NCBI RefSeq assembly: GCF_025502585.1
Contig: NZ_CP106679.1
Span: 2,697,501-2,761,500, forward strand
Direction: 5' to 3'
Source of the DNA: Reichenbachiella agarivorans
GTDB taxonomy: Bacteria > Bacteroidota > Bacteroidia > Cytophagales > Cyclobacteriaceae
Length of the DNA stretch: 64,000 bases
Positions 28,037 to 59,732 of this stretch are shown here, one piece after another. The position numbers and the translations under genes are program-made. Numbering within the stretch: the stretch's first letter is position 1; each line of letters begins with the position of its first letter. The notes below the pieces were generated by a model. It had not been told where the DNA came from, made no database searches, and saw only the letters and a program-made list of their open reading frames with translations.

Positions 28037-29191
28037 TTAGTTTATCAATGCTGTCGGGCTAAAACTAACAGCTTCTATTTTTTTCATTTGGCGGTGATCC
28101 AAGAATTTAGGCATCCTTTTGAAAGCTGCATTGCGTAGCTTGATGAGCAGCGGATTTTCTATTTGAGCCAATTGCCCTAGCTTGAGGGAAGTGTCGGTGA
28201 TCCATTGTGTGCGAGACAGTCGGAGTTGCTCGAATGATTTGAATACCAGCTCAAAGTGCTGGTGCTGTTTCATGCATTGAGCCAGAACTACGGCATCTTC
28301 TACGGCTTGACCAGCTCCTTGCCCTAGGTTTGGGGTGCTAGCATGTGCGGCGTCTCCGATGAGCACGATTCGATCAAAGGCAAAATTTTGGAGAGGTTTG
28401 ATGTCAAATAGATCATTCCATAAGAGGTTTTTGTCATCACTGTGTTGGATGATCTTGAGGATTGGGTCGTGGTAGTTTTGGAAATGAGTGATCAAATCTT
28501 GCGTGCCAAAATGCTTGAAATGAGGATCGTTTTGACTCGCATTGATGCAGGCGTACCAATAGGTTCTGTGATCTCTGAGGGGTACGATCCCAAAGCGCCC
28601 TGCCGATCCCCATGTTTCTGTGGCTTGTGTGATGTGCATCGGATGGTCGAGGACCGAGCGCCAACAGGTATATCCTGCATAGCGGGGCAGTGACTGGGGG
28701 ATCAGTTTTTTTCTGACCGCAGAATGAATCCCATCTGCTACGATCAAATAGTCAGTATCATATCGACTACCATCCTCAAAGTTCAATGTTGTTTTATTTG
28801 GTTCAATGTCAACATCTGTAAGTTTTTTGCCTAACAGGACAGTGGATGAATCTAATTGGGAGAGCAAAAATTGCTGCAAGTCTGCTCGATGAATGGTGCA
28901 GAGTGATGAGAATCGGCCTTGACTATTGTCTGTCTGTTTGATCGGGTTGCCCTTATGGTCAAGAATGGCAAAACCTGGTAATAAATTGCCTCTTTGACAG
29001 ATCTCATCATGGATACCCAATACCTCAAATGCCATCAGGGCATTTTTGCTCAGTCCCAAACCTGCTCCGATGGGTTTTATTTCTGGACTGCTTTCAAAAA
29101 TGGTCGCTTGGATACCTATTTGTTGGAGCGCAAGGGCAGTAGTCAATCCTGCTATTCCTCCTCCTAAGATGCTTACGGTCTTGTGTTTCAT
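28037..29191 (-). CDS. FAD-dependent monooxygenase (group A flavoprotein)
   Basis: 384 residues of the single-component aromatic hydroxylase fold. It has the dinucleotide-binding motif SILGGGIAGLTTALAL at the N-terminus, the DG motif YLIVADGIHSAVRKKL, and the GD motif LIGDAAHASTPNLGQGAGQA. These bind FAD and NAD(P)H. Members hydroxylate aromatic or related compounds (urate, hydroxybenzoates, tetracyclines); the substrate is unknown here. A Crp-type regulator gene lies 58 bases upstream on the same strand and may control it. It has no signal peptide. Confidence 0.9.
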   Translation of the reverse strand: MKHKTVSILGGGIAGLTTALALQQIGIQATIFESSPEIKPIGAGLGLSKNALMAFEVLGIHDEICQRGNLLPGFAILDHKGNPIKQTDNSQGRFSSLCTIHRADLQQFLLSQLDSSTVLLGKKLTDVDIEPNKTTLNFEDGSRYDTDYLIVADGIHSAVRKKLIPQSLPRYAGYTCWRSVLDHPMHITQATETWGSAGRFGIVPLRDHRTYWYACINASQNDPHFKHFGTQDLITHFQNYHDPILKIIQHSDDKNLLWNDLFDIKPLQNFAFDRIVLIGDAAHASTPNLGQGAGQAVEDAVVLAQCMKQHQHFELVFKSFEQLRLSRTQWITDTSLKLGQLAQIENPLLIKLRNAAFKRMPKFLDHRQMKKIEAVSFSPTALIN

Positions 29192-29249
29192 AGTGAAGGC
29201 AAAATTCTTTATTGACCACTACAATTGCCTTTACATATGTTAAATAATG

Positions 29250-29816
29250 CTACTGGACTCCTGCACGGATTCTGCTGATACTCACTTGTGTAGTCCCTAG
29301 ATAGGATGCGATGTAGTGCAAAGGACATCTGTTGGTGATTCCTGGATATTTTTTCTCCATGAGATCGTATCTTTCTTTTACAGAGTAAAAACGTAGACTT
29401 TCGATTCTCTCCTGTTCGTCGAGCAAGGCATAGGAGGTGATGATTCTGGTGGCATGTTCTAGAGAGTGGTGTTTGGCACAGCATGCTTCAAACGCTGCGG
29501 CATCAAAGTGGTATATGTCGGATGCTTCGATGAGGTGGATTCCTTTGTGGCTGGGTTGTCCTGTGAATAGGCTGGGTACCGCTCCGATGAACTGCCCATC
29601 TATGGCGAAATAATCAGTCACATCCTTGCCGTCATGGTAGTAATAGGCTCTTGCCAGCCCTTTGTGGATGTAAAACATGGATTTGGCCTTTTTGCCAATT
29701 TCTAGCAGTGTGGTGTTTTTGGAGAAATGATCGAAGCGAATGATCTGGGAGAAATCAGTCAATGCTTTGTCGTCAAGCGCTGCGATTTGTCCAAATAGGG
29801 TTAGGATTGGATTCAT
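29250..29816 (-). CDS. Crp/Fnr-family transcription regulator
   Basis: 188 residues: an N-terminal cyclic-nucleotide-binding-type beta roll (TTLLEIGKKAKSMFYIHKGL, then DYFAIDGQFIGAVPSLFTGQ) and a C-terminal helix-turn-helix (HYIASYLGTTQVSISRIRAG). No Fe-S-ligating N-terminal Cys cluster is seen, so it is not a classical oxygen-sensing Fnr. Bacteroidota carry many such short Crp proteins with unknown ligands. It lies directly before the FAD monooxygenase gene and after the pgk terminator, so these two probably form one unit. Confidence 0.9.
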   Translation of the reverse strand: MNPILTLFGQIAALDDKALTDFSQIIRFDHFSKNTTLLEIGKKAKSMFYIHKGLARAYYYHDGKDVTDYFAIDGQFIGAVPSLFTGQPSHKGIHLIEASDIYHFDAAAFEACCAKHHSLEHATRIITSYALLDEQERIESLRFYSVKERYDLMEKKYPGITNRCPLHYIASYLGTTQVSISRIRAGVQ

Positions 29817-32686: not shown

Positions 32687-33814
32687 TTAAAGTGTCCCCC
32701 GCAGCTCTTGCTCCCTCTCGATGGCTTCAAAGAGTGCTTTGAAGTTACCTTTGCCAAATGACTGGGCACCTTTTCTTTGGATGATTTCAAAGAAGACGGT
32801 AGGCCGTGACTCTACGGGTTTGGTGAATATCTGTAGCAAGTAGCCTTCGTCATCTCTATCTATCAAGATCCCGAGTTGTTTCAAGGGTTCGAGGTCTTCG
32901 TCGATGCTGCCGACTCGATCCAGTACCGTGTCATAGTAGGAAGAGGGTACATTGAGGAACTCCACACCTCTGCTCTGCATGGCGGTGACAGTCTCGATGA
33001 TGTTGTCCGTGGCAACTGCGATGTGCTGGACACCTGGCCCACCGTAGAAGTCTAGGTACTCTTCGATCTGCGATTTTTTCTTGCCTTCTGCAGGTTCGTT
33101 GATGGGGAATTTGATTCTGCCATTGCCGTTGCTCATGACCTTGCTCATCAGAGCGGTGTAATCTGTCGAGATATCCTTGTCATCAAAGGAAATCAACTGT
33201 GCAAATCCCATCACGCGGGCATAGAAGTCGACCCACTGGTTCATCTCTCCCCAGCCGACATTGCCGACCATGTGATCCACATATTTGAGCCCAGTGGGTG
33301 CAGGCTGATAGCTAGTTTCCCATCTTTCATAGCCAGGCAGGAAGACGCCTTGATAGTTCTTTCTCTCGATGAAATAATGAATGGTTTCGCCGTAGGTGTG
33401 AATGGCCGCTACCACCACTTCGCCATGCTTGTCTTTTCGGGTCTCAGGCTTGAGGTAGGATTTTGCGCCACGCTTGACAGTTTCTTGGTAAGAGTAGGTC
33501 GCATCATCCACCCATAGCGCAATGGCTTTGACCCCATCTCCATGTTGGTCGATGTGCTTGCCTACAGGCGTGCCAGCTTTGAGGGGAGAGGTCAGTACCA
33601 GTCTGATTTTGTCCTGTACCAAGACATAGGAATCATAGTTCTGATTGCCTGTCTCCAATCCTGAGTGGGCGAGGGATTGAAATCCAAAAGCTGTTTTGTA
33701 GTAGTGTGCTGCTTGCTTGGCATTGCCCACATACAGCTCGATGAAATCTGTGCCGTTGATGGGCAGGAAGTCTTCCGCTGCAGCGAATATTTTTTTAATT
33801 TCTTTCGTTTCCAT
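32687..33814 (-). CDS. hppD: 4-hydroxyphenylpyruvate dioxygenase
   Basis: 375 residues. It converts 4-hydroxyphenylpyruvate to homogentisate with a non-heme iron. The two VOC halves are visible: N-terminal FIELYVGNAKQAAHYYKTAF and C-terminal half starting YVDHMVGNVGWGEMNQW. The iron ligands are His in YVDHMV, His in GVQHIAVATDN and Glu in VFFEIIQRKG. It follows the amino acid dehydrogenase gene by 29 bases, so the pair may turn tyrosine into homogentisate. Homogentisate dioxygenase and fumarylacetoacetase are not in the window. Confidence 0.95.
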   Translation of the reverse strand: METKEIKKIFAAAEDFLPINGTDFIELYVGNAKQAAHYYKTAFGFQSLAHSGLETGNQNYDSYVLVQDKIRLVLTSPLKAGTPVGKHIDQHGDGVKAIALWVDDATYSYQETVKRGAKSYLKPETRKDKHGEVVVAAIHTYGETIHYFIERKNYQGVFLPGYERWETSYQPAPTGLKYVDHMVGNVGWGEMNQWVDFYARVMGFAQLISFDDKDISTDYTALMSKVMSNGNGRIKFPINEPAEGKKKSQIEEYLDFYGGPGVQHIAVATDNIIETVTAMQSRGVEFLNVPSSYYDTVLDRVGSIDEDLEPLKQLGILIDRDDEGYLLQIFTKPVESRPTVFFEIIQRKGAQSFGKGNFKALFEAIEREQELRGTL

Positions 33815-33843
33815 TGTCTTGTTTGTTATGCTGTCTTTCGTTT

Positions 33844-35094
33844 CTAAATCACCGCTATTTGTTCGCTGGGCAGCAATTGCGCCAGTGAATTTTCGAAGGC
33901 TGTCTTGGTCAAGAGGGTTTTACCAGGGTTTTGATCGTGAATTCGCAGGAGTGCCTTTCTGATAGTTTTGGCAGTGTCATTGAATATCGCTTCGTCCGAC
34001 ATGTCCGCTTTTCCTTCCATGAAATAGGCAAATACCCGTGCCATGCCGCAGTTGGCGATGAAGTCTGGGATCACGGCTGCTTGTCGGTCGGCATACTCAC
34101 TGATCGGTCCATAGAATATCTCCTTGTCGGCAAAGGGCACATTGGCTCCACAGCTGATCAATTCTAATCCACCTGTGAGCATTCTATCGATTTGTTCACG
34201 GGTTACCAGTCTGGAAGCAGCCGCTGGGATGAAAATCTGTGTACCCAAGTCCCAGACTTTGTTGTCCATTTCTTCAAAGGGAATCAAATCGGGATGTATC
34301 AAAGTGTTGCCTTTTTTGTGAATAAAAAGTTCTGTAATGTCTTCTTTGGTGAATCCCATTTCGTTGATCAAGCCACCTTCTTTGTCGATGATGGCGACAA
34401 TCTGCGCACCATAGGATGCTAGGTAAAATGCTGCCGCAGCACCGACATTGCCCCAACCCTGGATAGTTACTTTTTTGCCTGCGAGATCACCACCCCATAT
34501 ATTGTAGTATTGGAGAACACTCTGCGCCACCCCAAAACCCGTGATCATGTCTGCTATGCTGTATTTTCTTTTAGGATCGGGAGAGTATATGGATTCTTCG
34601 ATGACTTTGATTACGCCGAGGCGGAGTTGACCGATTCGGTTGATTTTGTCCGCCTGATTGGGTTGGAAGTGGCCATTGAAGACGCCCTCTTGTGGATGCC
34701 ACAGTCCGTTGATTTCCGTGATAGGAATTACTTCATGGATTTCGTCCACATTGAGGTCTCCACCTGTGCCGTAATAGTGCTTGAGTAGAGGTTTGACGGC
34801 TGCAAACCAACGCTGCAATACTTCGTGTTTTCGAGGATCGGAGGGGTCAAAATTGATGCCTGACTTGGCGCCACCGATAGGAGGGCCAGAGATGCTAAAT
34901 TTGATTTCCATGGTTTTGGCGAGTGACTCTACTTCGTTGCGGTTGAGACCTTTCCTCATCCTTGTGCCACCACCTGCCGCTCCACCTCTGAGAGAATTGA
35001 TCACAATCCAGCCTTCAGCATCTGTCTCTGCGTCATGCCATTCAATTACCACCTCGGGTCTTTTGGCCTCAAACTGTTTTAATAATTCTTTCAA
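33844..35094 (-). CDS. Glu/Leu/Phe/Val dehydrogenase family protein
   Basis: 416 residues. NAD(P)-dependent oxidative deamination of an amino acid. The substrate-side Lys lies in GPPIGGAKSGINFDP and the nucleotide-binding Rossmann motif in VTIQGWGNVGAAAAFYLA; GTGGDLNVDEIHEV replaces the usual APDVGT segment, so this is a divergent branch. The late FIPAAASRLV and GANVPF motifs fit the family. Its operon with hppD suggests tyrosine or phenylalanine as substrate, though the general role of glutamate or branched-chain deamination is also possible. It is divergent from an Lrp gene, the likely regulator. Confidence 0.85.
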   Translation of the reverse strand: MKELLKQFEAKRPEVVIEWHDAETDAEGWIVINSLRGGAAGGGTRMRKGLNRNEVESLAKTMEIKFSISGPPIGGAKSGINFDPSDPRKHEVLQRWFAAVKPLLKHYYGTGGDLNVDEIHEVIPITEINGLWHPQEGVFNGHFQPNQADKINRIGQLRLGVIKVIEESIYSPDPKRKYSIADMITGFGVAQSVLQYYNIWGGDLAGKKVTIQGWGNVGAAAAFYLASYGAQIVAIIDKEGGLINEMGFTKEDITELFIHKKGNTLIHPDLIPFEEMDNKVWDLGTQIFIPAAASRLVTREQIDRMLTGGLELISCGANVPFADKEIFYGPISEYADRQAAVIPDFIANCGMARVFAYFMEGKADMSDEAIFNDTAKTIRKALLRIHDQNPGKTLLTKTAFENSLAQLLPSEQIAVI

Positions 35095-35262
35095 TGTGTA
35101 GGATGTTTTTAAAGGATAAAAGTATTTATTTGTACGTCTATAAAGTGATAAATTCTATGCAAGTTTTTATTTGTAGAATAATCAAATTTATATTCATTGA
35201 TTTGACTGGATTATTCCTTTTTTGGGATCAAAGAATGGAGAAGAGGTAATAATTTTCTAAAA
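35095..35262. promoter_or_regulatory. Divergent control region, dehydrogenase / Lrp
   Basis: A 168-base, strongly AT-rich spacer between two start codons on opposite strands. It must hold promoters for the dehydrogenase-hppD and lrp-deiodinase units. AT-richness fits Lrp-type binding, but I cannot define individual boxes with confidence. Confidence 0.5.
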
Positions 35263-35727
35263 ATGGCGCTGTTAGACGAAGTAGATATCAAAATACTGGA
35301 CATACTCCAGGTAGAGGGTAGGATTACCAACAAGGCATTGGCGGATAGGTTGGGATTGTCCACCACGCCGATTTTTGAGCGAATGAAACGACTCGAAAGG
35401 GATGGTGTAATCAGGCAGTACGCCGCACTATTGGATCAACGGAAAATTGATCAGAAGATCACAGTCTTTGTTTTTATCTCGCTCAAGAACCATACTCGGT
35501 CTTATCTGGACAAGTTTATCGGAGAAATGAATGATTATCCTGAGGTACAGGAGTGCTACCACATCGCTGGTGATTTTGATTACATGCTCAAGATCGTGAG
35601 TCGAGACATTGATACGTATCAGGCCTTCATCCTCGCCAAGCTTTCTGTCAATTCCAATATTGCGCATGTGAAGAGCCAATTTGTTCTATCCAAAAACAAA
35701 CACACGACAGCCTTTAAATTGAAGTAA
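35263..35727 (+). CDS. Lrp/AsnC-family transcription regulator
   Basis: 154 residues: an N-terminal winged helix-turn-helix (EVDIKILDILQVEGRITNKA, then LADRLGLSTTPIFERMKRLE) and a C-terminal ligand-binding RAM domain (ITVFVFISLKNHTRSYLDKF; GDFDYMLKIVSRDIDTYQAF). Lrp proteins respond to amino acids, often the substrate of the neighbouring enzyme. Here it is divergent from the amino acid dehydrogenase and only one base separates its stop from the next gene, so its ligand is probably an aromatic or halogenated amino acid. That is an inference from position. Confidence 0.95.
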   Translation: MALLDEVDIKILDILQVEGRITNKALADRLGLSTTPIFERMKRLERDGVIRQYAALLDQRKIDQKITVFVFISLKNHTRSYLDKFIGEMNDYPEVQECYHIAGDFDYMLKIVSRDIDTYQAFILAKLSVNSNIAHVKSQFVLSKNKHTTAFKLK

Positions 35728-35728
35728 G

Positions 35729-36409
35729 ATGAAGACAAAAGAAATCAATGGCTTTACTCATGTAGCCTACGAGGGAGTGACTTTCTCGGAGGCAGAAATG
35801 CTCCAACGTAGCAAGGAATATCATGAGTGGAATGACAAGCGCAGGAGTGTCAGGGATATTTCGGCTAGGGAATTTCCTAGAAAAATCTTGGATCAAATCA
35901 TTATGACGGCATCTACCGCACCATCTGGTGCGCACAAACAGCCCTGGATATTTTGTGTGGTCAGTGATGCTGAGATCAAATCCAAGATCAGAACTGCTGC
36001 CGAAAAAGAAGAGTACGATAGCTATCATGGACGCATGAGCGAGCGATGGCTGGATGATTTGAAACCGATAGGTACGGATTGGCAGAAGCCATTTTTGGAG
36101 CAAGCGCCCTATCTGGTAGTCCTTTTCAAAAAAGTGTATGATAAAGATGCGAATGGTGGAAAAGTCAACAATTACTACGTCAACGAGTCTGTAGGAATCG
36201 CTGCGGGGATGTTTATCTCAGCAGTGCATCATGCGGGGTTGGTGACATTGACGCACACGCCGAGCCCCATGAACTTCCTGTCTGAAATACTGGAGCGTCC
36301 CGACAATGAAAGAGCTTTTTTGGTGCTGCCAGTGGGGTATGCTGCCGATGATGTGTACGTCCCTGATTTACGACGCAAAGAGCTAGAGGAAGTGGCAGTT
36401 TACTACTGA
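35729..36409 (+). CDS. Iodotyrosine deiodinase-like nitroreductase-fold flavoprotein
   Basis: 226 residues, FMN-binding nitroreductase fold. It resembles animal and bacterial iodotyrosine deiodinase more than ordinary nitroreductases: RRSVRDIS near residue 38, TASTAPSGAHKQPWIF (60-75), RMSERWLDDLKPI and the C-terminal VPDLRRKELEEV. The three residues that clamp the halotyrosine zwitterion in IYD (Glu, Tyr four later, Lys 21 after the Tyr) are present at E95, Y99 and K120. The family removes iodide or bromide from halotyrosines using FMN. It lacks the membrane anchor of the animal enzyme. It is one base behind the Lrp gene and close to hppD. Confidence 0.85.
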   Translation: MKTKEINGFTHVAYEGVTFSEAEMLQRSKEYHEWNDKRRSVRDISAREFPRKILDQIIMTASTAPSGAHKQPWIFCVVSDAEIKSKIRTAAEKEEYDSYHGRMSERWLDDLKPIGTDWQKPFLEQAPYLVVLFKKVYDKDANGGKVNNYYVNESVGIAAGMFISAVHHAGLVTLTHTPSPMNFLSEILERPDNERAFLVLPVGYAADDVYVPDLRRKELEEVAVYY

Positions 36410-36523: not shown

Positions 36524-37969
36524 GTGAAAAACTTAATTAACTTAATCAATTATACTGATGACAGATTGTGGTCATATGATCACAATTTGATTTGCACATG
36601 CTCCAATGAACAAGCCAAAATAGATTATTTAAACGCTTTCGGTGTAGAACTAGTGCCAGGGGTGAGTGTGTTGGAAGGTGTGCCAGAACCGATTCGTACG
36701 GAATGGAAGCAAGTTTATCTAAGAGGGTTGCAGGGTAAAAAAATCAGTTTCATTCACAGTTTTGGTCTTGAAGAATTACCAGCCTATCTAAAAATCACTT
36801 TGGTTCCAATATTAGAAAAGGATGAAGTAGTAGGTGTTGCATGCACATCACATGATATCACCGAATTGAAGATAGTCGAGCGACAGATGCTACAAAATGA
36901 AGCTTATCTAACCGCTCAGATCGAAAATACCAAAGACGCTATCTGGTCTGTTGACCGTGATTATAAACTATTGATCGTGAATACAGCGATGATTCACGGT
37001 TATATGGCAGCATATGGCAGGCAGTTGAAGGTAGGCGAAAACATGATAGAAAGTGCACCTGAAGAGATGCGCGAAGTATGGATTGAAAGATACGAACGTG
37101 CGCTCAAAGGAGAGGTGTTTAGTGTATTGGAGGAGTTTAATTTTGGAGAGCAAACACAATACATAGAGCTATCTCTGAACCCTATTCGCGTCAAAAATGC
37201 AGTAGTGGGAGTGGCGTGTTTTGGCAAGGATATCACACCAGTAAAGAGTTCGGAAATAGCACTGCAAAAAAGTGTAGAACTAAAGGATCGCTTCTTTTCT
37301 ATCATCGCACATGATCTCAAAGGACCAGTGGGTAACATCCGAGAATTGGTCAAGATGCTGGCGTCAACTTCGCTAAAACTGTCACAAGATCAACAAAATG
37401 AAATTGTGTCACATCTCAGCAATGCAACCCATGGCGTGTATGAATTGTTGGACAATCTGCTTGCTTGGGCGATGTCTCAGCAGAATTTTGTGAAAGTGAA
37501 AAAGGAACGGTTGAACGTCAACAAACTAATAGAAGACAGTATCAAAGCCTACAGAACCAGTGCAGAATCCAAAAATATTACTACTACAATAAAGGTAGAT
37601 CACCAGACAGAAGTCTTTGCTGATAAAAGAGCTTTGTCTAGCACAATCGCCAATCTCTACAACAATGCCATCAAGTTTACAAACGAATCAGGTACCATCA
37701 CTCTATCGGCAAAGAATCTTGTCCAACATCTGGAATTTTGTGTCAGTGATACAGGTGTGGGTATGGACGAAGAAGTACTCTCTTCTCTTTTTGATGAAAC
37801 CAAGGTGCTGACCAAAGCAGGCACCAGAAAGGAACGCGGCACAGGCTTAGGCTTGCTACTCTGCAAGGAATTTGTGATGCTCAATGGAGGAGAATTATGG
37901 GTAAAAAGTAAACTCGGAGAAGGCAGTGCATTTTGCTTCACAGTTCCTTTGGTCGAGGTTAATATTTAG
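36524..37969 (+). CDS. Soluble PAS-PAS histidine kinase
   Basis: 481 residues from a GTG start. Two PAS domains (about 8-120 and 125-245) lead into a HisKA domain with the phosphoacceptor in FSIIAHDLKGPVGNIREL and an HATPase domain with N box LYNNAIKFTNESG and G1/G2 boxes VSDTGVGMDEE and RGTGLGLLLCKEF. No membrane segment is present, so it senses a cytoplasmic signal. No response regulator gene is adjacent, making it an orphan kinase. PAS ligands cannot be inferred. Confidence 0.92.
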   Translation: MKNLINLINYTDDRLWSYDHNLICTCSNEQAKIDYLNAFGVELVPGVSVLEGVPEPIRTEWKQVYLRGLQGKKISFIHSFGLEELPAYLKITLVPILEKDEVVGVACTSHDITELKIVERQMLQNEAYLTAQIENTKDAIWSVDRDYKLLIVNTAMIHGYMAAYGRQLKVGENMIESAPEEMREVWIERYERALKGEVFSVLEEFNFGEQTQYIELSLNPIRVKNAVVGVACFGKDITPVKSSEIALQKSVELKDRFFSIIAHDLKGPVGNIRELVKMLASTSLKLSQDQQNEIVSHLSNATHGVYELLDNLLAWAMSQQNFVKVKKERLNVNKLIEDSIKAYRTSAESKNITTTIKVDHQTEVFADKRALSSTIANLYNNAIKFTNESGTITLSAKNLVQHLEFCVSDTGVGMDEEVLSSLFDETKVLTKAGTRKERGTGLGLLLCKEFVMLNGGELWVKSKLGEGSAFCFTVPLVEVNI

Positions 37970-46912: not shown

Positions 46913-49117
46913 ATGAAAGTGAAATATTTACATATTGCCTGTGGAATGCTATGCCTCGCGATAGGTGCCAAGGCACAGGTACGCGTAGATATCAACCTCG
47001 ACCTCAAACACCAAGTCGGCCAAATTGACCAGTTTGACCGAAACAAATTCGTTGCGATTCACGCCAATACAACGGAGCGAGAATGGGACGGAGACAATTT
47101 TACAACAGACCTAAGAAACGACTTTTTGAACGGGTACGATGTGTACCTAGGACGTGATACAGGAGGCATCTCCTGGGCACTCAATAGCAATACCAACGAA
47201 GACCCTGCTCGTCCTGGATTCGCAGACCCTGCGGGTATCGAGAGCTACGGTACGACAGTCAAAAATAATTATGCTGCACAGACCAGTTGGCATCCATATG
47301 AGGATAGAAATGACCAAATCCTGGCGGCACAGCTACACCCTTTTTGGCCTGATGGTCAAGAGACCAACCGAGGATGGGCGTTTTCAGAAGCAGATACTGA
47401 GGCAGAGCCTTTTGGGACAGCTACTGGGGAGTACATGGGGCGCTATATACGAGATAGCTATGGTACGGGAGGTACAACAGGCGCCAAAAAGCCACTTTAT
47501 GTAGAGGTGATCAACGAACCACTTTGGCATCTTGTTGATTTTGGGACAGATGAACCAGAGAAGATCTTCAGGTTTCACAATGCAGTCGCCGACCAAATCC
47601 GAATATACAATGACGATGTCTTGATCGGTGGTTTTTGTACTGCATTTCCTGACCATGAAAATCGAGGGTTCGCGCAATGGAATGAAAGGTGGAAGCTTTT
47701 CATGGATATGTCTGGCGATAAAATGGATTATTGGACGATCCATCTCTATGATTTTCCCTCGATCAACAATGGTAAGCAACGCTACCGAAAGGGCAGCAAC
47801 ATGGAGGCAACCTTCGATTTGATGGAACAATACAGTTATATGCAATTTGGAGAAGTGAAGCCATTTATGATCTCCGAATATGGGGCTCAGATGCACGATT
47901 ATTTCGGTGCTTGGTCTCCCTACAGAGATTGGTTGCATCTCAAATCCGTCAATTCCATGATGATGCAGTTCATGGAGCGTGCAAACATCATCAACAAGAC
48001 CCTCAATTTTTTGCCTGTCAAGGCAGAATGGGGTACCAATGGGGTGGACGATACTTACAACCACCGGTTGATGCGAAAGGCAGACGAACCACAGGCCTAT
48101 ACAGGAGAGTGGGTCTATTCGGACATGGTCAAGACCTATCAGCTATGGTCTGAAGTCAAGGGGACACGTGTGGACAGCTATGCCACCTCACTAGACCTAT
48201 TGGTGGATGCCTATGTTGATGGCAAGACAGCTTACGTGATTCTCAACAACCTCAAGTTCGAAGCAGTCCAAATCGAGCTGAACGCGCTAGGGCTGTCGAC
48301 TGCTGTAGTGGAAGAGATAGACCTCAAGCACCTCTACCTAGAGGGACAGGTGCCTGTACTTGAGCAATCCAATCAACAGGGGCTACCTGAGGCTGTGAGC
48401 TTGGAGAGTGAAGCCACGATGATACTCAAACTGACGCTGAGCGAGGCACCGAGTATTGACCAAACTTCAGTGGAGACGAAATACTATGCGACGGATTACC
48501 TCCAAGAGATCCATGCCAATGAGCCACTTACTTTTACGATTTCGGGAGTGCAGTTGGGGGATCATGGTGAGGCCATGCTGCGTCTAGGCATGGGCAGAGC
48601 ACATGGAAAGTCTCTCGTGCCGACCGTTCTAGTCAACGGGTTCGCACTAGATGTGCCGGTAGATTTTCGAGGAGATGATCAGGCGGACAGAGACAGTTTT
48701 TTTGGAGTGATAGAAATCCCTGTGCCCTACCAACAGCTGCAAAGTAGCAACGAAGTGAAAGTGACTTTCGCAGATGAAGGTGGACATCTGAGCAGTGTCG
48801 CCATGCAGGTGTATGGGTTTAGTCGTGAGGTCGATCGCTCGAATCCTGTGCTGGGACTTGAGGACAAAATAGCCTCAACCAGCCTACAAATGAAAGTATA
48901 TCCCAACCCAAGTTTTGATAGTGTCCGTCTCGAAGTGGCCCCTGATTTTGTCGGTGGACAGTGGCAAATCATGACACTATCGGGACAAGTAGCACAAGAA
49001 GCAAGGATTGATCAGGAGGTGATGCTCGTGGATGCTTCTGTACTCCCTAGCGGTGTGTACCTGATTCGGGTGAGCAACTACGGGGAAGTTTTAACAAGGA
49101 AATTAGTATTGAAATAA
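46913..49117 (+). CDS. GH86 beta-agarase/porphyranase with T9SS sorting domain
   Basis: 734 residues with a signal peptide (IGAKA, then Q). The catalytic (beta/alpha)8 domain shows the GH86 pattern: the acid/base Glu in LYVEVINEPLW (E202) and the nucleophile Glu in KPFMISEYGAQ (E322), as in characterised GH86 porphyranases and agarases that cut beta-1,4 galactose links endo-wise. Beta-sandwich domains follow. The last 80 residues are a type IX secretion domain (MKVYPNPSFDSVRLEV, GVYLIRVSNYGEVLTRKLVL), so the enzyme is exported to the surface. Agarase versus porphyranase specificity cannot be settled here. It lies 2 bases before the GH2 gene. Confidence 0.9.
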   Translation: MKVKYLHIACGMLCLAIGAKAQVRVDINLDLKHQVGQIDQFDRNKFVAIHANTTEREWDGDNFTTDLRNDFLNGYDVYLGRDTGGISWALNSNTNEDPARPGFADPAGIESYGTTVKNNYAAQTSWHPYEDRNDQILAAQLHPFWPDGQETNRGWAFSEADTEAEPFGTATGEYMGRYIRDSYGTGGTTGAKKPLYVEVINEPLWHLVDFGTDEPEKIFRFHNAVADQIRIYNDDVLIGGFCTAFPDHENRGFAQWNERWKLFMDMSGDKMDYWTIHLYDFPSINNGKQRYRKGSNMEATFDLMEQYSYMQFGEVKPFMISEYGAQMHDYFGAWSPYRDWLHLKSVNSMMMQFMERANIINKTLNFLPVKAEWGTNGVDDTYNHRLMRKADEPQAYTGEWVYSDMVKTYQLWSEVKGTRVDSYATSLDLLVDAYVDGKTAYVILNNLKFEAVQIELNALGLSTAVVEEIDLKHLYLEGQVPVLEQSNQQGLPEAVSLESEATMILKLTLSEAPSIDQTSVETKYYATDYLQEIHANEPLTFTISGVQLGDHGEAMLRLGMGRAHGKSLVPTVLVNGFALDVPVDFRGDDQADRDSFFGVIEIPVPYQQLQSSNEVKVTFADEGGHLSSVAMQVYGFSREVDRSNPVLGLEDKIASTSLQMKVYPNPSFDSVRLEVAPDFVGGQWQIMTLSGQVAQEARIDQEVMLVDASVLPSGVYLIRVSNYGEVLTRKLVLK

Positions 49118-49119
49118 GG

Positions 49120-51672
49120 ATGAAAAGGACAATAAATAGGGTACTCGGATTGGCGCTTGGTTTGGCTATATCTTGGGGAGCAAAAGCGACTGAAGCCGTT
49201 GATTTTAATTTTGATTGGCAGTTTAGACTGACACAAGACTCTGTCATGGGCGGGGATTACACGCACAATCTCCAAACGGATGATGGATGGACAGAGGTCA
49301 GACTACCGCACGATTGGGTCATCGGTGGGACTTACGATCAGGCCAATGCACAGTTTGCGCCAGCGACAGGCTACATCTATGGAGGTGGATACGGTTGGTA
49401 CCAGAAAACCTTTGACCTCCATGTCAGCGAGGACAGCTTGCACCATATTTTGTTTGACGGGGTGTACAATCACTCCGAAGTATGGATCAACGGTCATTCT
49501 CTCGGAGAGCATCCCTACGGTTATTCGCCCTTCTACTATGACTTGACTCCCTATCTCAATGCAGATGGAAAAGACAACCTATTGGTCGTCAAGATCGATC
49601 ATACGCGCTATGCGGATAGCAGATGGTACACGGGGGCGGGAATCTACCGCAACGTCAAGTTGGTGTCCAGCCACAAACTGCGTGTACCGATATGGGGCAC
49701 CTTCGTCCAAACACCCGAAGTGACGACCGAGCAAGCGCTCGTCAGCATGGAGTTTACCTTGGACAATGGACTAGACAAGAATACCAAAGCATCCTACACC
49801 GTGGAGATTGTAGATCCTATGGGAATTGTCGTGGCGACTCAAACCGAAAAGATCAAGCTGGCACAGTCTAGTCAGCAAAAGGTTAAAGTGAATCTGACCG
49901 TGGATCACCCTCAACTATGGGGAATAGATGATCCGAAGCTTTACCAGGCAGTCACGACCGTTTATGTCAAGGATACCCCAGTGGATCAGCAGAAAACTCG
50001 TTTTGGCATTCGTACGATCCGCTTCGATGCGAACGAGGGTTTTTTCCTCAATGGAGAAAACATGAAAATCAAAGGGGTCTGCTTGCATCATGATGGTGGA
50101 CTTGTGGGTACTGCAGTACCTCGTGGCGTGTGGGCGCGTAGGTTTAAGGTATTGAAAGAGGCGGGGTGCAACGCGATTCGCATTTCACACAATCCAGGTT
50201 CTGAGGAGTTTTTGCAATTGTGCGACGAGATGGGGTTTTTGGTACAGGATGAGTTTTTTGACGAGTGGGACAACCCCAAAGACAAACGTTGGAACACCAA
50301 AGAGAAAGAAGTTCACTACGAGACTCAAGGGGCGTCACAGTATTTTCAGGAGTGGGCTGAGAGTGACCTGAAGTCAGTCATGTTGGCACATAGAAACCAT
50401 CCGAGTATCATCCAATGGAGCATCGGTAACGAGATCGAATGGACTTATCCACGGACTGCAGAGGCCACAGGATTTTTCAACAACATGGATTGGAATGGTA
50501 ACTATTTTTGGTCAGAGCCACCTTACAATACGGAGCAGATTGCTCAGAGATTGGACACTCTTCCTAGAGGCAAGTACGATATCGGAGAGACGGCACAAAA
50601 GCTCGCAGCATGGACCAGAGAGATGGATACGTCTCGACCTGTAGTGGCCAATTGTATCCTGCCCTCGGCCAGCCATCTGACTGGGTATGGACAGACCTTG
50701 GACATAGTTGGGTACAGCTACCGTCGTATTCTTTATGATTATGGACATGAAAACTACCCTGACAAAGTCATCATGGGGACAGAGAATCTGGCGCAATACC
50801 ATGAATGGAAGGCGATCATGGAGCGACCGTTTATTTCAGGTACCTATTTGTGGACAGGGATTGATTACTTGGGAGAGATCAGGGGACCATGGCCCAAAAA
50901 AGGCACGGGAAGTGGGATAGTGGATTTTGCGGGGTTCGCCAAGCCGTCTTACTACATGATGAAGTCCCTCTGGAACGAGGAACCAAGCATCTACATCGCT
51001 ACGCAGACACTTGATCGATCCATCAACGCGATAGACGAAGCTACTGGCCTCATGGTGGCCAAGGATCCAGAGGCTTGGCAGCATGCACTTTGGGAGTGGC
51101 ATGATGTCAACAACTACTGGGAGTACAAAGAGGGAGAAATGATCAGTGTCGAACTGTACTCCAACTGTGATGAGATTGAGTTGTTTTTGAATGACAGCAG
51201 CTTGGGCAAACGTATTTTGTCGGAGTTTGAAGATCATATCTACAAGTGGGCCGTGCCTTTTGCTCAAGGAGAACTCAAAGCGGTCGGTACGCTGGATGGT
51301 ACTCAGATAGAGGAGGTGCTTTACAGTACCACGGCTCCATATGCAGTAGAGCTCAAGGTAGATCAGCAGCAGATCGATGCAGATGGGTACGATGTGGTAC
51401 ATGTCGTAGCACAGCTAGTGGATAGAAGCGGTCACCCTGTCAAAGACCAAAACAGAAAAATCACATTCGATATCGCTGGAGAAGCGAGACTGCTGGGTGT
51501 AGACACAGGGTCGGTGTACAATGTGCAACAGCACAGTACCAATGCGCTGGTCACTGATCAGGGCAGGGCTTTGATGATTTTTCAATCCATCAAAGGGAAA
51601 ACAGGAGAAGTCAAAGTGACCGTCTCGGCAGACGGATTGGAAGCTGGCGTAGCGAAGGTCACAATCAAATAA
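49120..51672 (+). CDS. GH2 beta-galactosidase
   Basis: 850 residues with a signal peptide (MKRTINRVLGLALGLAISWG). Domain order is the usual GH2: sugar-binding jelly roll (about 30-185), Ig-like domain (190-300), TIM barrel (305-620) and C-terminal Ig-like domains. The acid/base Glu lies in IIQWSIGNEIEW (E438) and the nucleophile Glu in KVIMGTENLAQY (E555). GCNAIRISHNPGSEEFLQLC is a family landmark. It probably removes non-reducing galactose from agaro- or porphyran-oligosaccharides in the periplasm. It has no sorting domain. GH2 enzymes are a frequent member of agar/porphyran loci. Confidence 0.9.
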   Translation: MKRTINRVLGLALGLAISWGAKATEAVDFNFDWQFRLTQDSVMGGDYTHNLQTDDGWTEVRLPHDWVIGGTYDQANAQFAPATGYIYGGGYGWYQKTFDLHVSEDSLHHILFDGVYNHSEVWINGHSLGEHPYGYSPFYYDLTPYLNADGKDNLLVVKIDHTRYADSRWYTGAGIYRNVKLVSSHKLRVPIWGTFVQTPEVTTEQALVSMEFTLDNGLDKNTKASYTVEIVDPMGIVVATQTEKIKLAQSSQQKVKVNLTVDHPQLWGIDDPKLYQAVTTVYVKDTPVDQQKTRFGIRTIRFDANEGFFLNGENMKIKGVCLHHDGGLVGTAVPRGVWARRFKVLKEAGCNAIRISHNPGSEEFLQLCDEMGFLVQDEFFDEWDNPKDKRWNTKEKEVHYETQGASQYFQEWAESDLKSVMLAHRNHPSIIQWSIGNEIEWTYPRTAEATGFFNNMDWNGNYFWSEPPYNTEQIAQRLDTLPRGKYDIGETAQKLAAWTREMDTSRPVVANCILPSASHLTGYGQTLDIVGYSYRRILYDYGHENYPDKVIMGTENLAQYHEWKAIMERPFISGTYLWTGIDYLGEIRGPWPKKGTGSGIVDFAGFAKPSYYMMKSLWNEEPSIYIATQTLDRSINAIDEATGLMVAKDPEAWQHALWEWHDVNNYWEYKEGEMISVELYSNCDEIELFLNDSSLGKRILSEFEDHIYKWAVPFAQGELKAVGTLDGTQIEEVLYSTTAPYAVELKVDQQQIDADGYDVVHVVAQLVDRSGHPVKDQNRKITFDIAGEARLLGVDTGSVYNVQQHSTNALVTDQGRALMIFQSIKGKTGEVKVTVSADGLEAGVAKVTIK

Positions 51673-51709
51673 GTGGGTTTTAAAACAATGAATAATAAGA
51701 GACAAAACG

Positions 51710-52729
51710 ATGAAGGCAGCATTTTATAAAGAAAAAGGGAAGTTCGAAATTGGTGAAGGTCAGCAGATCAAACCTGGAGCGGGCGAAGTAAGATTAGATG
51801 TGGCGTACTGCGGCGTATGCGGGACAGATGTACACATCTATCACGGGGTGATGGATGCGAGAGTGAAGCCGCCGATGACCGTAGGACACGAAGCATCTGC
51901 TACGGTAGCTGAATTGGGCGAAGGAGTATCCAACGTCAAAGTGGGAGACAAAGTAGCAGTTCGTCCGTTGCACTTTGGTGCACCGCATGCTTTTGACAAA
52001 GGCTTTGCGCATGTAGGCAAAAACTTGAAGTTTATCGGAATCGATAGCCAGGGAGCTTTTCAAAATAGCTGGACGGTGCCTGCCTATACTTTGCACAAGT
52101 TGCCCGAGAGCTTGTCGCTCAAGCATGGTGCATTTATCGAACCATTGGCAGTGGCGTGTCACGATGTGAAAATCGGACGTGTAGTCGCTGGTGAGCATAC
52201 GCTGGTGATTGGAGGTGGTCCTATTGGGACTTTGATCGCGTATGTATTGGAAGAAAAGGGAGCGCATGTCATCATCTCTGAAGTCAACGAAAACAGACTG
52301 AAGATGCTCAATGACCTAGGGTTCACAACGATCAATCCTGCCAAAGAAAGTCTGACAGAGCGCATCAGTGAGCTCACCAACGAAAAAATGATTGACTGTG
52401 CATTTGAAGTGTCGGGTTCTGCACCTGGAGTAGAGGCGATGACGCAGGTAGTCAATGTGAGAGGTCGCATCGTGATGGTGGCCATCCACGGGGGAGAGAA
52501 GAAACCCGTCGATTTGTTCAAATTCTTCTGGTCAGAGATCGAGCTATTGGGCGCGAGATTGTACGAGGAGGAGGATTATGAGGAGGCCATCCGTATCGCA
52601 GATTCAGGGCAAGTGCCTTTCGAAAAACTCATCACACAAGTGGATACTTTGGACAATATCCAGTCGATTTTCGAAACGATCGACAACAATCCTGCAGGTA
52701 TGAAATACTTGATTGACTGTCAACAGTAA
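51710..52729 (+). CDS. Zinc-type medium-chain alcohol dehydrogenase, no structural zinc lobe
   Basis: 339 residues, MDR superfamily. The catalytic zinc site is present (YCGVCGTDVHIYHG with C37, GHEAS with H60-E61) and the coenzyme motif is VIGGGPIGTLIAYVLEEKGA. The four-Cys structural zinc lobe, normally around residues 90-110, is absent: that region reads RPLHFGAPHAFDKGFAHVG. It is cytoplasmic. In the known anhydrogalactose route, L-2-keto-3-deoxygalactonate is oxidized to the 2,5-diketo acid, and this gene is the best candidate for that step given its place between GH2 and an SDR. The assignment is inferred from context. Confidence 0.8.
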   Translation: MKAAFYKEKGKFEIGEGQQIKPGAGEVRLDVAYCGVCGTDVHIYHGVMDARVKPPMTVGHEASATVAELGEGVSNVKVGDKVAVRPLHFGAPHAFDKGFAHVGKNLKFIGIDSQGAFQNSWTVPAYTLHKLPESLSLKHGAFIEPLAVACHDVKIGRVVAGEHTLVIGGGPIGTLIAYVLEEKGAHVIISEVNENRLKMLNDLGFTTINPAKESLTERISELTNEKMIDCAFEVSGSAPGVEAMTQVVNVRGRIVMVAIHGGEKKPVDLFKFFWSEIELLGARLYEEEDYEEAIRIADSGQVPFEKLITQVDTLDNIQSIFETIDNNPAGMKYLIDCQQ

Positions 52730-52768
52730 ACAGAACTACCAATAGAAATTCACACAACATAAGATACA

Positions 52769-53539
52769 ATGAGCATATTAGATACATTCAAATTAGAAGG
52801 AAAAGTAGCCCTAGTGACGGGGTGCAAGAGAGGAATCGGCAAAGCCATGGCGGTAGGTTTGGCAGAGGCAGGGGCAGACATCATCGGGGTGAGTGCTTCT
52901 TTGGAAAAATCTGGATCAGAAGTCGAAAAGGCAGTGACTGCTTTGGGCAGAAAGTTCAAGGCTTACACATGTGATTTTTCGGATAGAAACGCTTTGTATG
53001 AGTTCATCAAAGAAGTGAAAGGAGACTTTCCAGTGATCGATATTTTGGTCAACAATGCGGGAACCATCCTCAGGACACCAGCTGCTGAGCATCCAGATGA
53101 AATGTGGGACAAGGTCATCGAAGTGAATCAAAATGCGCAATTCATTTTGACACGAGAGATTGGGAAAGAAATGGTTGCTAGAGGCAGTGGCAAAGTGATT
53201 TTTACGGCTTCTCTATTGACTTTCCAAGGCGGCATCACCGTACCTGGTTATGCTGCGAGCAAGGGAGCAATCGGTCAGATGACGATGGCTTTTGCCAACG
53301 AATGGGCAGGCAAAGGGGTCAATGTCAATGCAGTTGCACCAGGCTACATCAGCACTGACAATACCGAGGCATTGAGAAACGATGCGGACAGATCTGCGTC
53401 GATTCTCTCTAGAATTCCCGCAGGACGGTGGGGCGAAGCGACGGATTTTGCAGGACCTACAGTGTTCCTCGCATCTGCGGCATCTAGCTACATGCACGGC
53501 AGCATCATGCTAGTCGACGGAGGCTGGATGGGACGTTAA
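52769..53539 (+). CDS. Short-chain dehydrogenase, KduD-like
   Basis: 256 residues, classical SDR. Coenzyme motif TGCKRGIGKAMAVG near residue 18, NNAG at about 93-96, catalytic Ser in FTASLL and YxxxK in VPGYAASKGAIG. The pattern (KLEGKVALVTG, LVDGGWMGR end) resembles 2-deoxy-D-gluconate / KduD-type dehydrogenases. In agar loci such enzymes are proposed to reduce 2,5-diketo-3-deoxygalactonate to 2-keto-3-deoxygluconate. It is cytoplasmic and 39 bases behind the zinc dehydrogenase, with which it would form an oxidation-reduction pair that epimerizes C5. Confidence 0.85.
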   Translation: MSILDTFKLEGKVALVTGCKRGIGKAMAVGLAEAGADIIGVSASLEKSGSEVEKAVTALGRKFKAYTCDFSDRNALYEFIKEVKGDFPVIDILVNNAGTILRTPAAEHPDEMWDKVIEVNQNAQFILTREIGKEMVARGSGKVIFTASLLTFQGGITVPGYAASKGAIGQMTMAFANEWAGKGVNVNAVAPGYISTDNTEALRNDADRSASILSRIPAGRWGEATDFAGPTVFLASAASSYMHGSIMLVDGGWMGR

Positions 53540-53543
53540 TGAG

Positions 53544-53635
53544 TGCTCAGTACTTGGTACTATAGACTAAGTACTGAATCTCTTTTACCTATAAAATATT
53601 AAGAGTCTTTGTGCTCTCTACTTAGTACTAAATAC
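53544..53635. repeat. Direct repeat of an AGTACT-containing unit
   Basis: A 24-base unit at 53544-53567 recurs at 53612-53635 with 19 matches. Inside the first copy and its flank, CAGTACTT and AAGTACTG form an 8-base inverted repeat. The pair fills the gap between the SDR and aldehyde dehydrogenase genes. Confidence 0.65.
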
Positions 53636-53643
53636 TTGAAAAA

Positions 53644-55083
53644 ATGAAGGATTACAAATTGTTTATCAACGGAGAGTGGGTAGAATCCACGACTGGAGAC
53701 AGAGATACCGTATATAGCCCGATCGACGAGAGCAGTGTAGCTACTACGGCGATGGGAGTAGAAGCAGATGCTGTTCTCGCCCTCCAAGCGGCAGAAGCAG
53801 CGCAGAAGGAATGGAAAAAATGGCCAGCCAAAAAGAGAGCAGACTTATTGAGGAAGTTTGCAGCTGAGATTCGTGCCAACCGAGATAGACTCGGTGAGTT
53901 GCTCACCAGAGAGCAAGGCAAATTGCTGTCGTTGGCCAAGTTCGAAGTAGATGTGACGGCCAGTTTCATCGAGTATGCCTGTGATGGTGCCAGAGCCATA
54001 GAAGGAGATATCGTCCAGTCGGACAACCCTGATGAGCACATTTGGATTCACAAAATCCCGAGAGGAGTGGTCGTAGCGATCACGGCATGGAACTTCCCAC
54101 TGGCACTGGCTGGTCGCAAGATCGGACCAGCATTGGTGGCGGGCAATGCCATCGTGGTGAAGCCTACGCAGGAGACTCCTTTGGCGACTCTGGAGCTAGG
54201 AGATATTGCCAACAAAGTTGGCTTGCCAAAGGGACTATTGAATATCGTCACTGGTTCAGGTCGTGTATTGGGCGAAGCATTGGTAGCCAATCCAATCACC
54301 AAGATGGTGACCATGACGGGTAGTACGCCCGCAGGTCAGTCGATCTTCAAGACTGCTGCGCAGAATTTGACACATGTACAGTTGGAGTTGGGAGGCAAAG
54401 CACCATCAATAGTTTTCGCGGATGCGGACATAGATCAGGCGGTAGAGGCGACTTTTCACTCACGATGGGACAACTGCGGACAGGTATGCACCTGCAATGA
54501 ACGCATGTATGTGCACGAGGATATCTACGACGTATTTATGGAGAAGTTTCTCGCCAAGACGCGCGCAATCAAAGTGGGCAATCCGATGGAAGAGGGCATA
54601 GATATGGGGCCAAAAGTCAACGCCAACGAGCTCAAAAACATGGAGCATCTGGTAGCGAAAAGTATCGAAGAAGGCGCGAAGATCGCATTTGGAGGCAAGA
54701 AACCTACCGGCAAGGGATTTGACAAAGGGTACTGGTTCGAACCGACCGTGATCACGGATGTGACCCAAGACATGACGATCGTACACGAGGAGGCTTTTGG
54801 ACCGATTTTGCCCGTTATCAAGTTCAAGGATTTTGATCAAGTGATCGCTTGGGCCAACGACTGTGCGTACGGATTGGCTGCTATGGTGTTCACGACTGAC
54901 ATGAAGAAAATCCTCAGACTCAACGACGAGTTGGAGTTCGGGGAGATCTATGTCAACAGAGGACATGGCGAACAGCACCAAGGATTCCACAACGGCTACA
55001 AACTCAGCGGTAGCGGAGGAGAAGACGGTAAATATGGTTTCGAACAGTACATGGAGAAGAAAACGTTTTACGTGAAATATTAA
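53644..55083 (+). CDS. Aldehyde dehydrogenase, probable 3,6-anhydro-L-galactose dehydrogenase
   Basis: 479 residues, NAD(P)-dependent aldehyde dehydrogenase. Catalytic Glu in VQLELGGKAPSIV (E248) and Cys in NCGQVCTCNERM (C282), the usual 34-residue spacing. Cofactor motifs AITAWNFPLALAGRKIGPAL and GSTPAG are present. Its closest general type is AldA, a lactaldehyde/glycolaldehyde dehydrogenase. In an agar locus the first step in anhydrogalactose use is oxidation of this aldehyde sugar to 3,6-anhydro-L-galactonate, and this is the only aldehyde dehydrogenase present, next to the cycloisomerase. It is cytoplasmic. Confidence 0.88.
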   Translation: MKDYKLFINGEWVESTTGDRDTVYSPIDESSVATTAMGVEADAVLALQAAEAAQKEWKKWPAKKRADLLRKFAAEIRANRDRLGELLTREQGKLLSLAKFEVDVTASFIEYACDGARAIEGDIVQSDNPDEHIWIHKIPRGVVVAITAWNFPLALAGRKIGPALVAGNAIVVKPTQETPLATLELGDIANKVGLPKGLLNIVTGSGRVLGEALVANPITKMVTMTGSTPAGQSIFKTAAQNLTHVQLELGGKAPSIVFADADIDQAVEATFHSRWDNCGQVCTCNERMYVHEDIYDVFMEKFLAKTRAIKVGNPMEEGIDMGPKVNANELKNMEHLVAKSIEEGAKIAFGGKKPTGKGFDKGYWFEPTVITDVTQDMTIVHEEAFGPILPVIKFKDFDQVIAWANDCAYGLAAMVFTTDMKKILRLNDELEFGEIYVNRGHGEQHQGFHNGYKLSGSGGEDGKYGFEQYMEKKTFYVKY

Positions 55084-55140
55084 AATAGTCGGGAGTCCAT
55101 GATATATGGGCTCCTGATTATTGCCTATAGATTTTTCAAA

Positions 55141-56262
55141 ATGAGCAAAATAAAAAATATCAAAGTACGGCTTTTTAATGTCCCACTATCGGAGGTGCTG
55201 TCGGATGCCAAGCATGGTGATCATACACACTTCGAGTTGGTGACTACTACGATCACACTAGAGGATGGTAGTGAAGGTACGGGCTATACCTATACAGGTG
55301 GCAAAGGAGGGCACAGCATCAAGGCGATGCTAGAGCATGACATAGCACCTGCTCTGCTAGGCAAGGATGGTACTGCCATCGACGAGATTTATGATTTCAT
55401 GGAGTGGCACATTCACTACGTGGGCAGAGGTGGGATTGCTTCGTTTGCGATCTCTACGGTGGACATAGCACTATGGGATATCAAGGGCAAAAAGACAGGC
55501 CAGCCCCTCTGGAAAATGGCTGGCGGTGCGGGGCATACGTGCAAGGCATATTGTGGCGGGATCGACTTGATGTTTCCCCTCGAAAAGCTATTGAACAACA
55601 TGAAGGGCTACCTCGCAGCAGGTTTCAATGCCGTCAAAATCAAGATAGGAAGAGAAAATCTCGACGAAGATATCGCGCGCATCAAGGCAGTACGCGAATA
55701 CATCGGTCCAGACGTGACCTTCATGGTGGATGCCAACTACTCGATGAGCGTAGACAAGGCCATCGAGTGCTCCAAGAGGATGGAGGAGTGTGATATCACG
55801 TGGTTCGAAGAACCGACGATTCCGGATGACTATTTGGGCTTTGCCAAAATTGCAGAGGCAACCAATGTGCCTTTGGCGATGGGAGAAAACCTACATACCA
55901 TCCATGAGTTCGAATATGCATTTGAGCAAGCCAAACTAGGTTTCATTCAGCCAGATGCATCCAACTGTGGAGGCATCACAGGATGGCTCAAAGCGGCCGA
56001 ACTGTCCAGAAAATACAACACACCTGTTTGTTCGCATGGGATGCAGGAACTACACGTGAGCTTGGTGTCTGCACAGCCCAACAGTGGGTGGCTGGAGGTA
56101 CACAGCTTCCCAATAGATGAGTACACCACTCGTCCATTGGTAGTAGAAAACCACAGAGCTGTAGCTCCAGATGAGCCAGGGATAGGAGTCACTTTTGAGT
56201 GGAACAAGTTGGAACCATACGAAGTGAAGAGTGCGCCCGTGGCTTATTCGGGGCATGTGTAG
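55141..56262 (+). CDS. Enolase-superfamily protein, probable anhydrogalactonate cycloisomerase
   Basis: 373 residues from the ATG at 55141 ([20 protein letters not shown]); an upstream in-frame ATG at 55099 would add 14 hydrophobic residues and is unlikely. Mandelate racemase/muconate-lactonizing subgroup: Lys pair in AVKIKIG (K166, K168), metal ligands D197, E223 and E249, and H299 in CSHGMQELH. Such enzymes abstract a proton alpha to a carboxylate. In agar loci this family opens 3,6-anhydro-L-galactonate to 2-keto-3-deoxy-L-galactonate. It follows the aldehyde dehydrogenase, which makes that substrate. Confidence 0.9.
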
Positions 56263-56282
56263 ACATTGAAACAAAGCATGAT

Positions 56283-57311: not shown

Positions 57312-57340
57312 TAAATGAGAACCATGAGCCATAGAAGCAA

Positions 57341-57380
57341 GAGAGAATCTTGACTCTTGATTTTTGACTCTAAAATCTAA
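57341..57380. repeat. Iterated TTGACTC-type words in spacer
   Basis: The spacer before the transporter repeats TCTTGACTCTTGATTTTTGA words. They belong to the same word family as the tracts at 7101, 23815 and 31781. Confidence 0.5.
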
Positions 57381-57385
57381 AGAAC

Positions 57386-58387: not shown

Positions 58388-58426
58388 GCATAAGAGATGT
58401 AATTAGGGAAGATAAATTAGAACAAA

Positions 58427-59659: not shown

Positions 59660-59678
59660 GTAGTTTGATTTAGTAATT

Positions 59679-59709: not shown

Positions 59710-59732
59710 CCAATCCGTATAAAAGCACTCAA

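Follow-up and report, generated by a model that had tools for sequence, protein, structure and literature searches.

The homogentisate route of tyrosine degradation ends in fumarate and acetoacetate. What bacteria use iodotyrosine deiodinase (IYD) for, and which reductant serves this enzyme, are to our knowledge open questions. IYD is known from mammals through to bacteria (PMC13078365, available part of the article), and the mammalian enzyme is a membrane protein (PMC3930498, likewise a partial text). Here, a locus of Reichenbachiella agarivorans is described in which an IYD gene directly follows a gene for a regulator of the Lrp/AsnC family, divergent from genes of tyrosine degradation. It lies in a window of 64,000 nucleotides (the whole stretch of DNA that was analyzed; contig NZ_CP106679.1, positions 2,697,501 to 2,761,500) of a genome consisting of one contig of 4.47 Mb. 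We lean towards the explanation that, under the control of its Lrp, the locus feeds salvaged halogenated tyrosine into the homogentisate pathway.

The locus and its flavoprotein

The four open reading frames (ORFs) coding for the dioxygenase, the dehydrogenase, the regulator and the IYD were found exactly where a preliminary description of this DNA had placed them:

32687-33814, minus strand: 4-hydroxyphenylpyruvate dioxygenase (HPPD), 375 amino acids; NCBIfam TIGR01263, PDB 1t47
33844-35094, minus strand: amino-acid dehydrogenase of the Glu/Leu/Phe/Val type, 416 amino acids, TTG start; Pfam ELFV_dehydrog
35095-35262, no strand: divergent intergenic region of 168 bp with an AGAAT/ATTCT inverted repeat
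35263-35727, plus strand: Lrp/AsnC-family regulator, 154 amino acids; Pfam AsnC_trans_reg and HTH_24
35729-36409, plus strand: IYD, predicted nitroreductase fold binding flavin mononucleotide (FMN), 226 amino acids; E95/Y99/K120/T177

The stop codon of lrp and the ATG of the IYD gene are separated by the single base 35728, and the unit of the dehydrogenase and HPPD genes is divergent from these two, so that the arrangement described earlier is borne out by the ORF positions. The lrp and IYD genes are probably co-transcribed.

The protein encoded at 35729-36409 is confirmed as a bacterial IYD, and not an ordinary nitroreductase, by its sequence, its modeled fold and its active-site residues. 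In a phmmer search against solved structures, it matched the IYD of Haliscomenobacter hydrossis (5ko7, 1.8e-88), mouse IYD (1.2e-57, mammalian IYDs in general at about 1e-57) and a further IYD structure (6pz0, 8.4e-24), while other nitroreductases appeared only from 2.4e-8. An AlphaFold model (predicted local distance difference test, pLDDT, 90.3) points to the FMN-binding nitroreductase fold. The top 25 rows of a Foldseek search with this model are all IYD chains, the best being 5ko8 with 60% identity and a template modeling score (TM) of 0.90, and the E-value jumps by four orders of magnitude from the last of them (1.7e-15) to the first non-IYD row (2.6e-11).

The residues E95, Y99, K120, and T177 line up with the equivalent residues of H. 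hydrossis and mouse IYD, as the preliminary description had claimed for the E95-Y99-K120 triad among other deiodinase landmarks. We take the E, Y and K of this triad to bind the amino-acid portion of the substrate and T177 to be the active-site threonine. All of 143 distinct IYD rows, the window included, have K120 and T177, and 142 also have E95 and Y99; the exception (L230) comes from a genome with stops in its frame. This set was drawn from 172 loci, nine of which yielded no IYD row during ORF picking, and is separate from the loci L268-L271 and those of the plasmid collection.

That an ordinary nitroreductase or a BluB-like flavoprotein was misread as IYD is very improbable and largely refuted. 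In Pfam and NCBIfam, the protein matches nothing but nitroreductase, BluB and FbiB-type models, as such a misreading would have it. However, its BluB score on NCBIfam is 37.5 bits where 150 are required, IYD chains lead the Foldseek search as a block, and E95, Y99, and T177 are absent from the remaining three nitroreductases encoded in the genome, one of which has a lysine at position 120 in the same alignment. This assignment was rejected, and a placement among ordinary nitroreductases is not the case.

The tyrosine operon and its conservation in Reichenbachiella

The HPPD reaches 455 bits on NCBIfam model TIGR01263 (cut-off 277) and matches PDB entry 1t47 at 6e-125. Eight Reichenbachiella genomes, including that of the window, were searched for the genes of the locus (thresholds 1e-30, 1e-80, and 1e-60). 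Seven contain IYD, and the same seven contain the dehydrogenase and HPPD; the eighth (G401) gave no match to any of the three at these thresholds. In all seven loci the dehydrogenase and HPPD genes share an arm divergent from lrp and the IYD gene, and the junctions between the latter two measure 1, 3, 4, -1, 1, 2, and -1 bases, with the IYD start aligned to that of the window. Within the genus this neighborhood is beyond chance. The look at related genomes that the preliminary description had suggested thus finds the same genes kept in seven of eight, with a conservation confined to the genus.

In the window and in G395, G398, and G400, the dehydrogenase gene is directly followed by that of HPPD. 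The arm of G396, G397, and G399 codes for the dehydrogenase, an HmgA-like homogentisate dioxygenase, HPPD, fumarylacetoacetase (FAH) and a flavin reductase. Protein families were searched on the G396 proteins only, the homogentisate dioxygenase, FAH and flavin reductase of G397 and G399 being 83-93% identical. Because three genomes carry these additional genes there, the divergent arm is a tyrosine-degradation operon. The genes for HmgA and FAH, which share an operon with that of HPPD in these three genomes, lie about 1.55 Mb from the locus in the window genome (G000:C1:4283642-4288479). This distal cluster (L072) comprises adjacent genes on the same strand for homogentisate dioxygenase, FAH and 3-oxoacid CoA-transferase A and B (L072:6627-10480). 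FAH passes its curated cut-off; the HmgA-like proteins lie above the Pfam cut-off for HgmA_N, but with about 67 bits they stay far below the NCBIfam cut-off of 511. A phenylalanine hydroxylase is encoded elsewhere in the window genome. Tyrosine gene clusters are closed by a flavin-reductase-like protein (PF01613) at L113:2232-3131 and L072:5643-6560, which is a candidate electron donor for IYD. The copy in the distal cluster of the window genome has 305 amino acids and lies at G000:C1:4283642-4284559. The tyrosine pathway that had been proposed beside the IYD gene is therefore borne out by the curated HPPD match and by the homogentisate genes in the divergent arm of the relatives.

The dehydrogenase matches Pfam ELFV_dehydrog at 1.5e-24. 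Glutamate dehydrogenases top both the profile and the single-sequence searches with it, and leucine and phenylalanine dehydrogenases match weakly (the phenylalanine dehydrogenase 1bxg at 8.3e-7 with the profile). Gly41 stands where glutamate dehydrogenases have a lysine, which presumably binds the side-chain carboxylate of glutamate; it is invariant in 11 aligned relatives, as are K65, K77, and D113. The reading as a glutamate dehydrogenase is weakened by Gly41, despite the first rank of these enzymes in the searches. Due to the replacement of the lysine, a non-acidic amino acid is the likely substrate, as judged from the alignment, and the operon context suggests tyrosine.

The regulator contains both the helix-turn-helix (HTH) and the ligand-binding domain (HTH_24 5.6e-18, AsnC_trans_reg 6.4e-21), and its scores on the nine NCBIfam models listed are all below threshold. 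The region 35095-35262 is expected to hold both promoters and predicted sites for the regulator. Its AGAAT/ATTCT inverted repeat is found in the intergenic region of all seven genus sequences, which come from related species. Against a role as operator stands that a 5-letter dyad occurred in all seven sequences in 10 of 200 single-letter shuffles, and that TAAAA is also present in all seven. The dyad is therefore weak evidence, giving only a hint of a candidate operator.

From the observed gene families, their order, their conservation in the genus and the presence of the downstream genes, a pathway can be proposed, for which we infer substrates, reductant, regulation and nutritional use. The regulator would most likely respond to tyrosine or to an aromatic amino acid related to it, and control both arms. 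IYD with reduced FMN would act on tyrosine with one or two ring halogens (bromine, iodine, perhaps chlorine) and put hydrogen in the place of the halogen. The resulting tyrosine would be deaminated by the dehydrogenase to 4-hydroxyphenylpyruvate, which HPPD would convert to homogentisate, and the second cluster, with homogentisate dioxygenase, FAH and 3-oxoacid CoA-transferase, would complete the pathway. Produced in HEK293 cells, the mammalian IYD, DEHAL1, removes the bromine of bromotyrosine in vitro (PMC4708624, available part), and the bromo route is therefore chemically sound.

Downstream of the IYD gene, a PAS sensor histidine kinase is encoded at 36524-37969 on the plus strand (Pfam and NCBIfam searches). 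It follows IYD in four of the seven genus loci and does not adjoin it in the other three; with so partial a linkage, it is probably not essential to the system. Elsewhere in the window, at 28037-29816, a protein of the FAD-binding monooxygenase type adjoins one with a cyclic-nucleotide-binding domain (Pfam).

Linkage outside the genus and competing explanations

In an even sample of 395 Bacteroidota genomes, IYD was found in 115 (1e-30), HPPD in 206 (1e-80) and the dehydrogenase in 53 (1e-80). The surroundings of IYD, up to about 9 kb per side and in some cases ended by a contig edge, were searched by tblastn in the 114 genomes outside the genus. A further 36 IYD loci were searched, of which L036 belongs to a genus member (the same genome as L110) and was left out, leaving 35.

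Several results weigh against a coupling of IYD to tyrosine degradation. HPPD was found near IYD in one of the 114 genomes (G219) and in one of the 35 loci (L051, about 500 bases off, with a short opposite ORF between). These two linked cases compare with about 0.5 expected, which is not significant (rough Poisson estimate for 4-Mb genomes, P ~0.08). HPPD is missing from 40 of the 115 IYD genomes (1e-80), and IYD therefore does not need the homogentisate pathway. No positive association exists between IYD and the dehydrogenase (10/115 vs. 43/280, counts not corrected for kinship). The dehydrogenase itself has HPPD within 2 kb in only 3 of 53 genomes (the window, G320, and G002, from a comparison of coordinates by eye). 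Its neighbor in three relatives (G273, G186, and G111) is a gene read as anmK. Given these neighbors and the rare proximity of HPPD, its substrate may be other than tyrosine. Its structure model, with a mean pLDDT of 72.5 and a poor N-terminal domain, left the pocket unreadable and was not used. Furthermore, a maleylacetoacetate isomerase of the maiA type was looked for in the window genome and not found. On the counts of 1/114 genomes and 1/35 loci, a linkage of IYD and HPPD as a general rule of the Bacteroidota was rejected.

On the level of whole genomes, the co-occurrence of IYD and HPPD is somewhat above that expected from counts alone (75/115 vs. 131/280), and HPPD is present in all 53 sampled dehydrogenase genomes compared to 206 of 395 overall, both comparisons being uncorrected for kinship. 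The IYD of G219 lies near genes for HPPD, homogentisate dioxygenase and a distantly related Lrp (30% identity), and two further genes separate IYD from this Lrp; the order at L143:45-5578, from a distant Bacteroidota genome, is IYD, an alpha/beta hydrolase and a NUDIX protein (both by reading), Lrp, and then the divergent genes for HPPD and homogentisate dioxygenase. In five of the 35 loci, a phenylalanine hydroxylase, recognized by similarity to the copy of the window genome, is encoded on the opposite strand at a distance of 4-9 kb from IYD. This proximity was not counted as support, since genes read as his genes intervene in four of the five and the neighborhood is probably inherited.

Pairs of Lrp and IYD also occur in another phylum. 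Nine records of a plasmid collection carry IYD, and eight were inspected (not H3); the Nonomuraea record has 11.9 Mb and is chromosome-sized. Two of them, from Streptomyces sp. NBC_00525 and Nonomuraea gerenzanensis, have an Lrp/AsnC gene that directly adjoins IYD and is divergent from it (L262:6294-7666, L263:6385-7639), the two regulators being 63% identical to each other. No Lrp gene was found beside IYD in Streptomyces sp. Caat 7-52, the third actinobacterium inspected. A profile of eight Lrps, run against 160 IYD loci, matched the genus loci L036 and L110-L115 as well as L143, L262, and L263, and also a fragment at the far end of L210. In L268-L271, no match was obtained by tblastn with the Lrp of the window, the sole search on these loci.

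The origin of the linkage can be approached through relatives of the tyrosine locus. An Lrp gene divergent from dehydrogenase, homogentisate dioxygenase and HPPD genes is also present in G320, from another genus of the same family (58% identical), and in Splendidivirga G546 (65%). In G320, IYD is on a different contig (L124) from this locus (L117). The 10 kb on each side of IYD in Splendidivirga (L041, L254) contain no Lrp, dehydrogenase, homogentisate dioxygenase or HPPD; its neighbors there were read, with no family search, as 3-deoxy-D-arabino-heptulosonate 7-phosphate (DAHP) synthase, prephenate dehydrogenase and an aminotransferase. As two other genera have the Lrp-linked locus with IYD elsewhere, the simplest history has the genus ancestor probably recruiting IYD to a tyrosine locus that was already linked to an Lrp gene. 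The seven IYDs of the genus group in a single branch of a quick tree built from 144 rows (SH-like approximate likelihood ratio test, SH-aLRT, 94), with three Marinoscillum rows, whose IYDs sit among other genes, as weakly supported neighbors (SH-aLRT 77). A tree with nitroreductase paralogues as outgroup had branches of 8-10 and a useless root, and was rebuilt without paralogues and without L230.

The same chemistry and gene evidence would also fit protection instead of feeding, in which IYD repairs halotyrosine formed by hypohalous acids or haloperoxidases and so keeps it off tRNA and out of toxic halogenated pathway intermediates. The gene would then stand at a tyrosine locus since its substrate resembles tyrosine and is one to which the regulator responds already. 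The IYD genomes without HPPD point in this direction, as IYD seems to be useful there without the catabolic pathway, and in HepG2 cells both the loss of bromine from bromotyrosine and the entry of bromotyrosine into protein have been followed (PMC4708624, in the part available). We nevertheless regard protection as rather unlikely, since the fuller catabolic operon in three species and the joint absence of the genes from G401 fit substrate use better, the latter point being limited to one single event. It is improbable that IYD is a passenger, brought behind lrp by a single move in the genus ancestor, with other substrates such as free halophenols or nitroaromatics. A linkage that probably arose once, as the single branch suggests, the varied IYD neighborhoods of other genera and the crystallization of H. 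hydrossis IYD with 2-iodophenol (5krd, by its entry title) agree with such an origin. In contrast, the junction of -1 to +4 bases was kept in all seven species while other parts of the locus rearranged, the E, Y, and K residues are retained, and separate pairs of Lrp and IYD exist in two actinobacteria.

The salvage of halotyrosine thus stays our preferred explanation. A wider proposal is put forward tentatively, as possible but doubtful in its entirety: in more than one phylum, bacterial IYDs would be served by an Lrp-type regulator of their own, and Reichenbachiella would combine halotyrosine catabolism through the homogentisate route with an Lrp sensing tyrosine or halotyrosine and with the flavin reductase of the tyrosine operon as electron donor.

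Algal context and comparison with known systems

The window also contains a galactan-type locus from 46913 to 61853, with a sulfatase to 63499, which is opened by a beta-porphyranase gene (Pfam). It codes for a GH2 protein, a weaker GH43 match, alcohol, short-chain and aldehyde dehydrogenases, an MR/MLE enzyme, a RhaT-like transporter and the sulfatase, as well as one protein without a Pfam match (59733-61853). This supports the red-alga context that the preliminary description had drawn from the galactan locus. Three Reichenbachiella species have been described with agar- and carrageenan-degrading enzymes (PMC10752948, available part). The coupling of the genes as a pathway, which had been proposed as a whole, is favored in part: the identity of the IYD, the tyrosine pathway, the genus-wide locus and the algal context argue for it, and the rarity of the linkage outside the genus argues against it.

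If the proposal is true, the locus would represent a route that returns the organic bromine and iodine of algal material to halide, and a dedicated Lrp together with halotyrosine catabolism would give bacterial IYD a physiological role. Since the locus links IYD physically with a regulator of the amino-acid type and with the breakdown of tyrosine, and since cultured species of the genus exist, this role is directly testable. The linkage of IYD, tyrosine operon and Lrp was not found in the open literature searched, whose coverage of primary work on bacterial IYD is incomplete; IYD and HPPD were never named together in it, the sole paper with iodotyrosine and homogentisate being a glioma study. 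Bacterial IYD is already known, and within this literature the locus is new as a variant of tyrosine catabolism.

The closest described protein is the IYD of H. hydrossis (5ko7, 5ko8, 5krd), with which the window protein shares about 60% identity over 216 columns (5ko8), the fold and the E/Y/K/T residues. It is taken here as a solved structure alone, and the Saprospiraceae loci that group near it in the tree are flanked by different genes. Mammalian IYD/DEHAL1 (3tnz, 4ttc) is about 45% identical and has the residue set in common, but its role is the recycling of iodide and not catabolism. With the Lrp/AsnC feast-famine regulators, the regulator shares the HTH and ligand-binding domains, and its gene abuts that of IYD here. 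Compared to the homogentisate pathway (HPPD, HmgA, and FAH), HPPD and FAH pass the curated cut-offs and an HmgA-like protein and the CoA-transferase are present. Unlike the usual pathway, the entry step would belong to an amino-acid dehydrogenase, HmgA is divergent and no maiA-type isomerase was found, whereas a dehalogenase and its Lrp regulator have been added.

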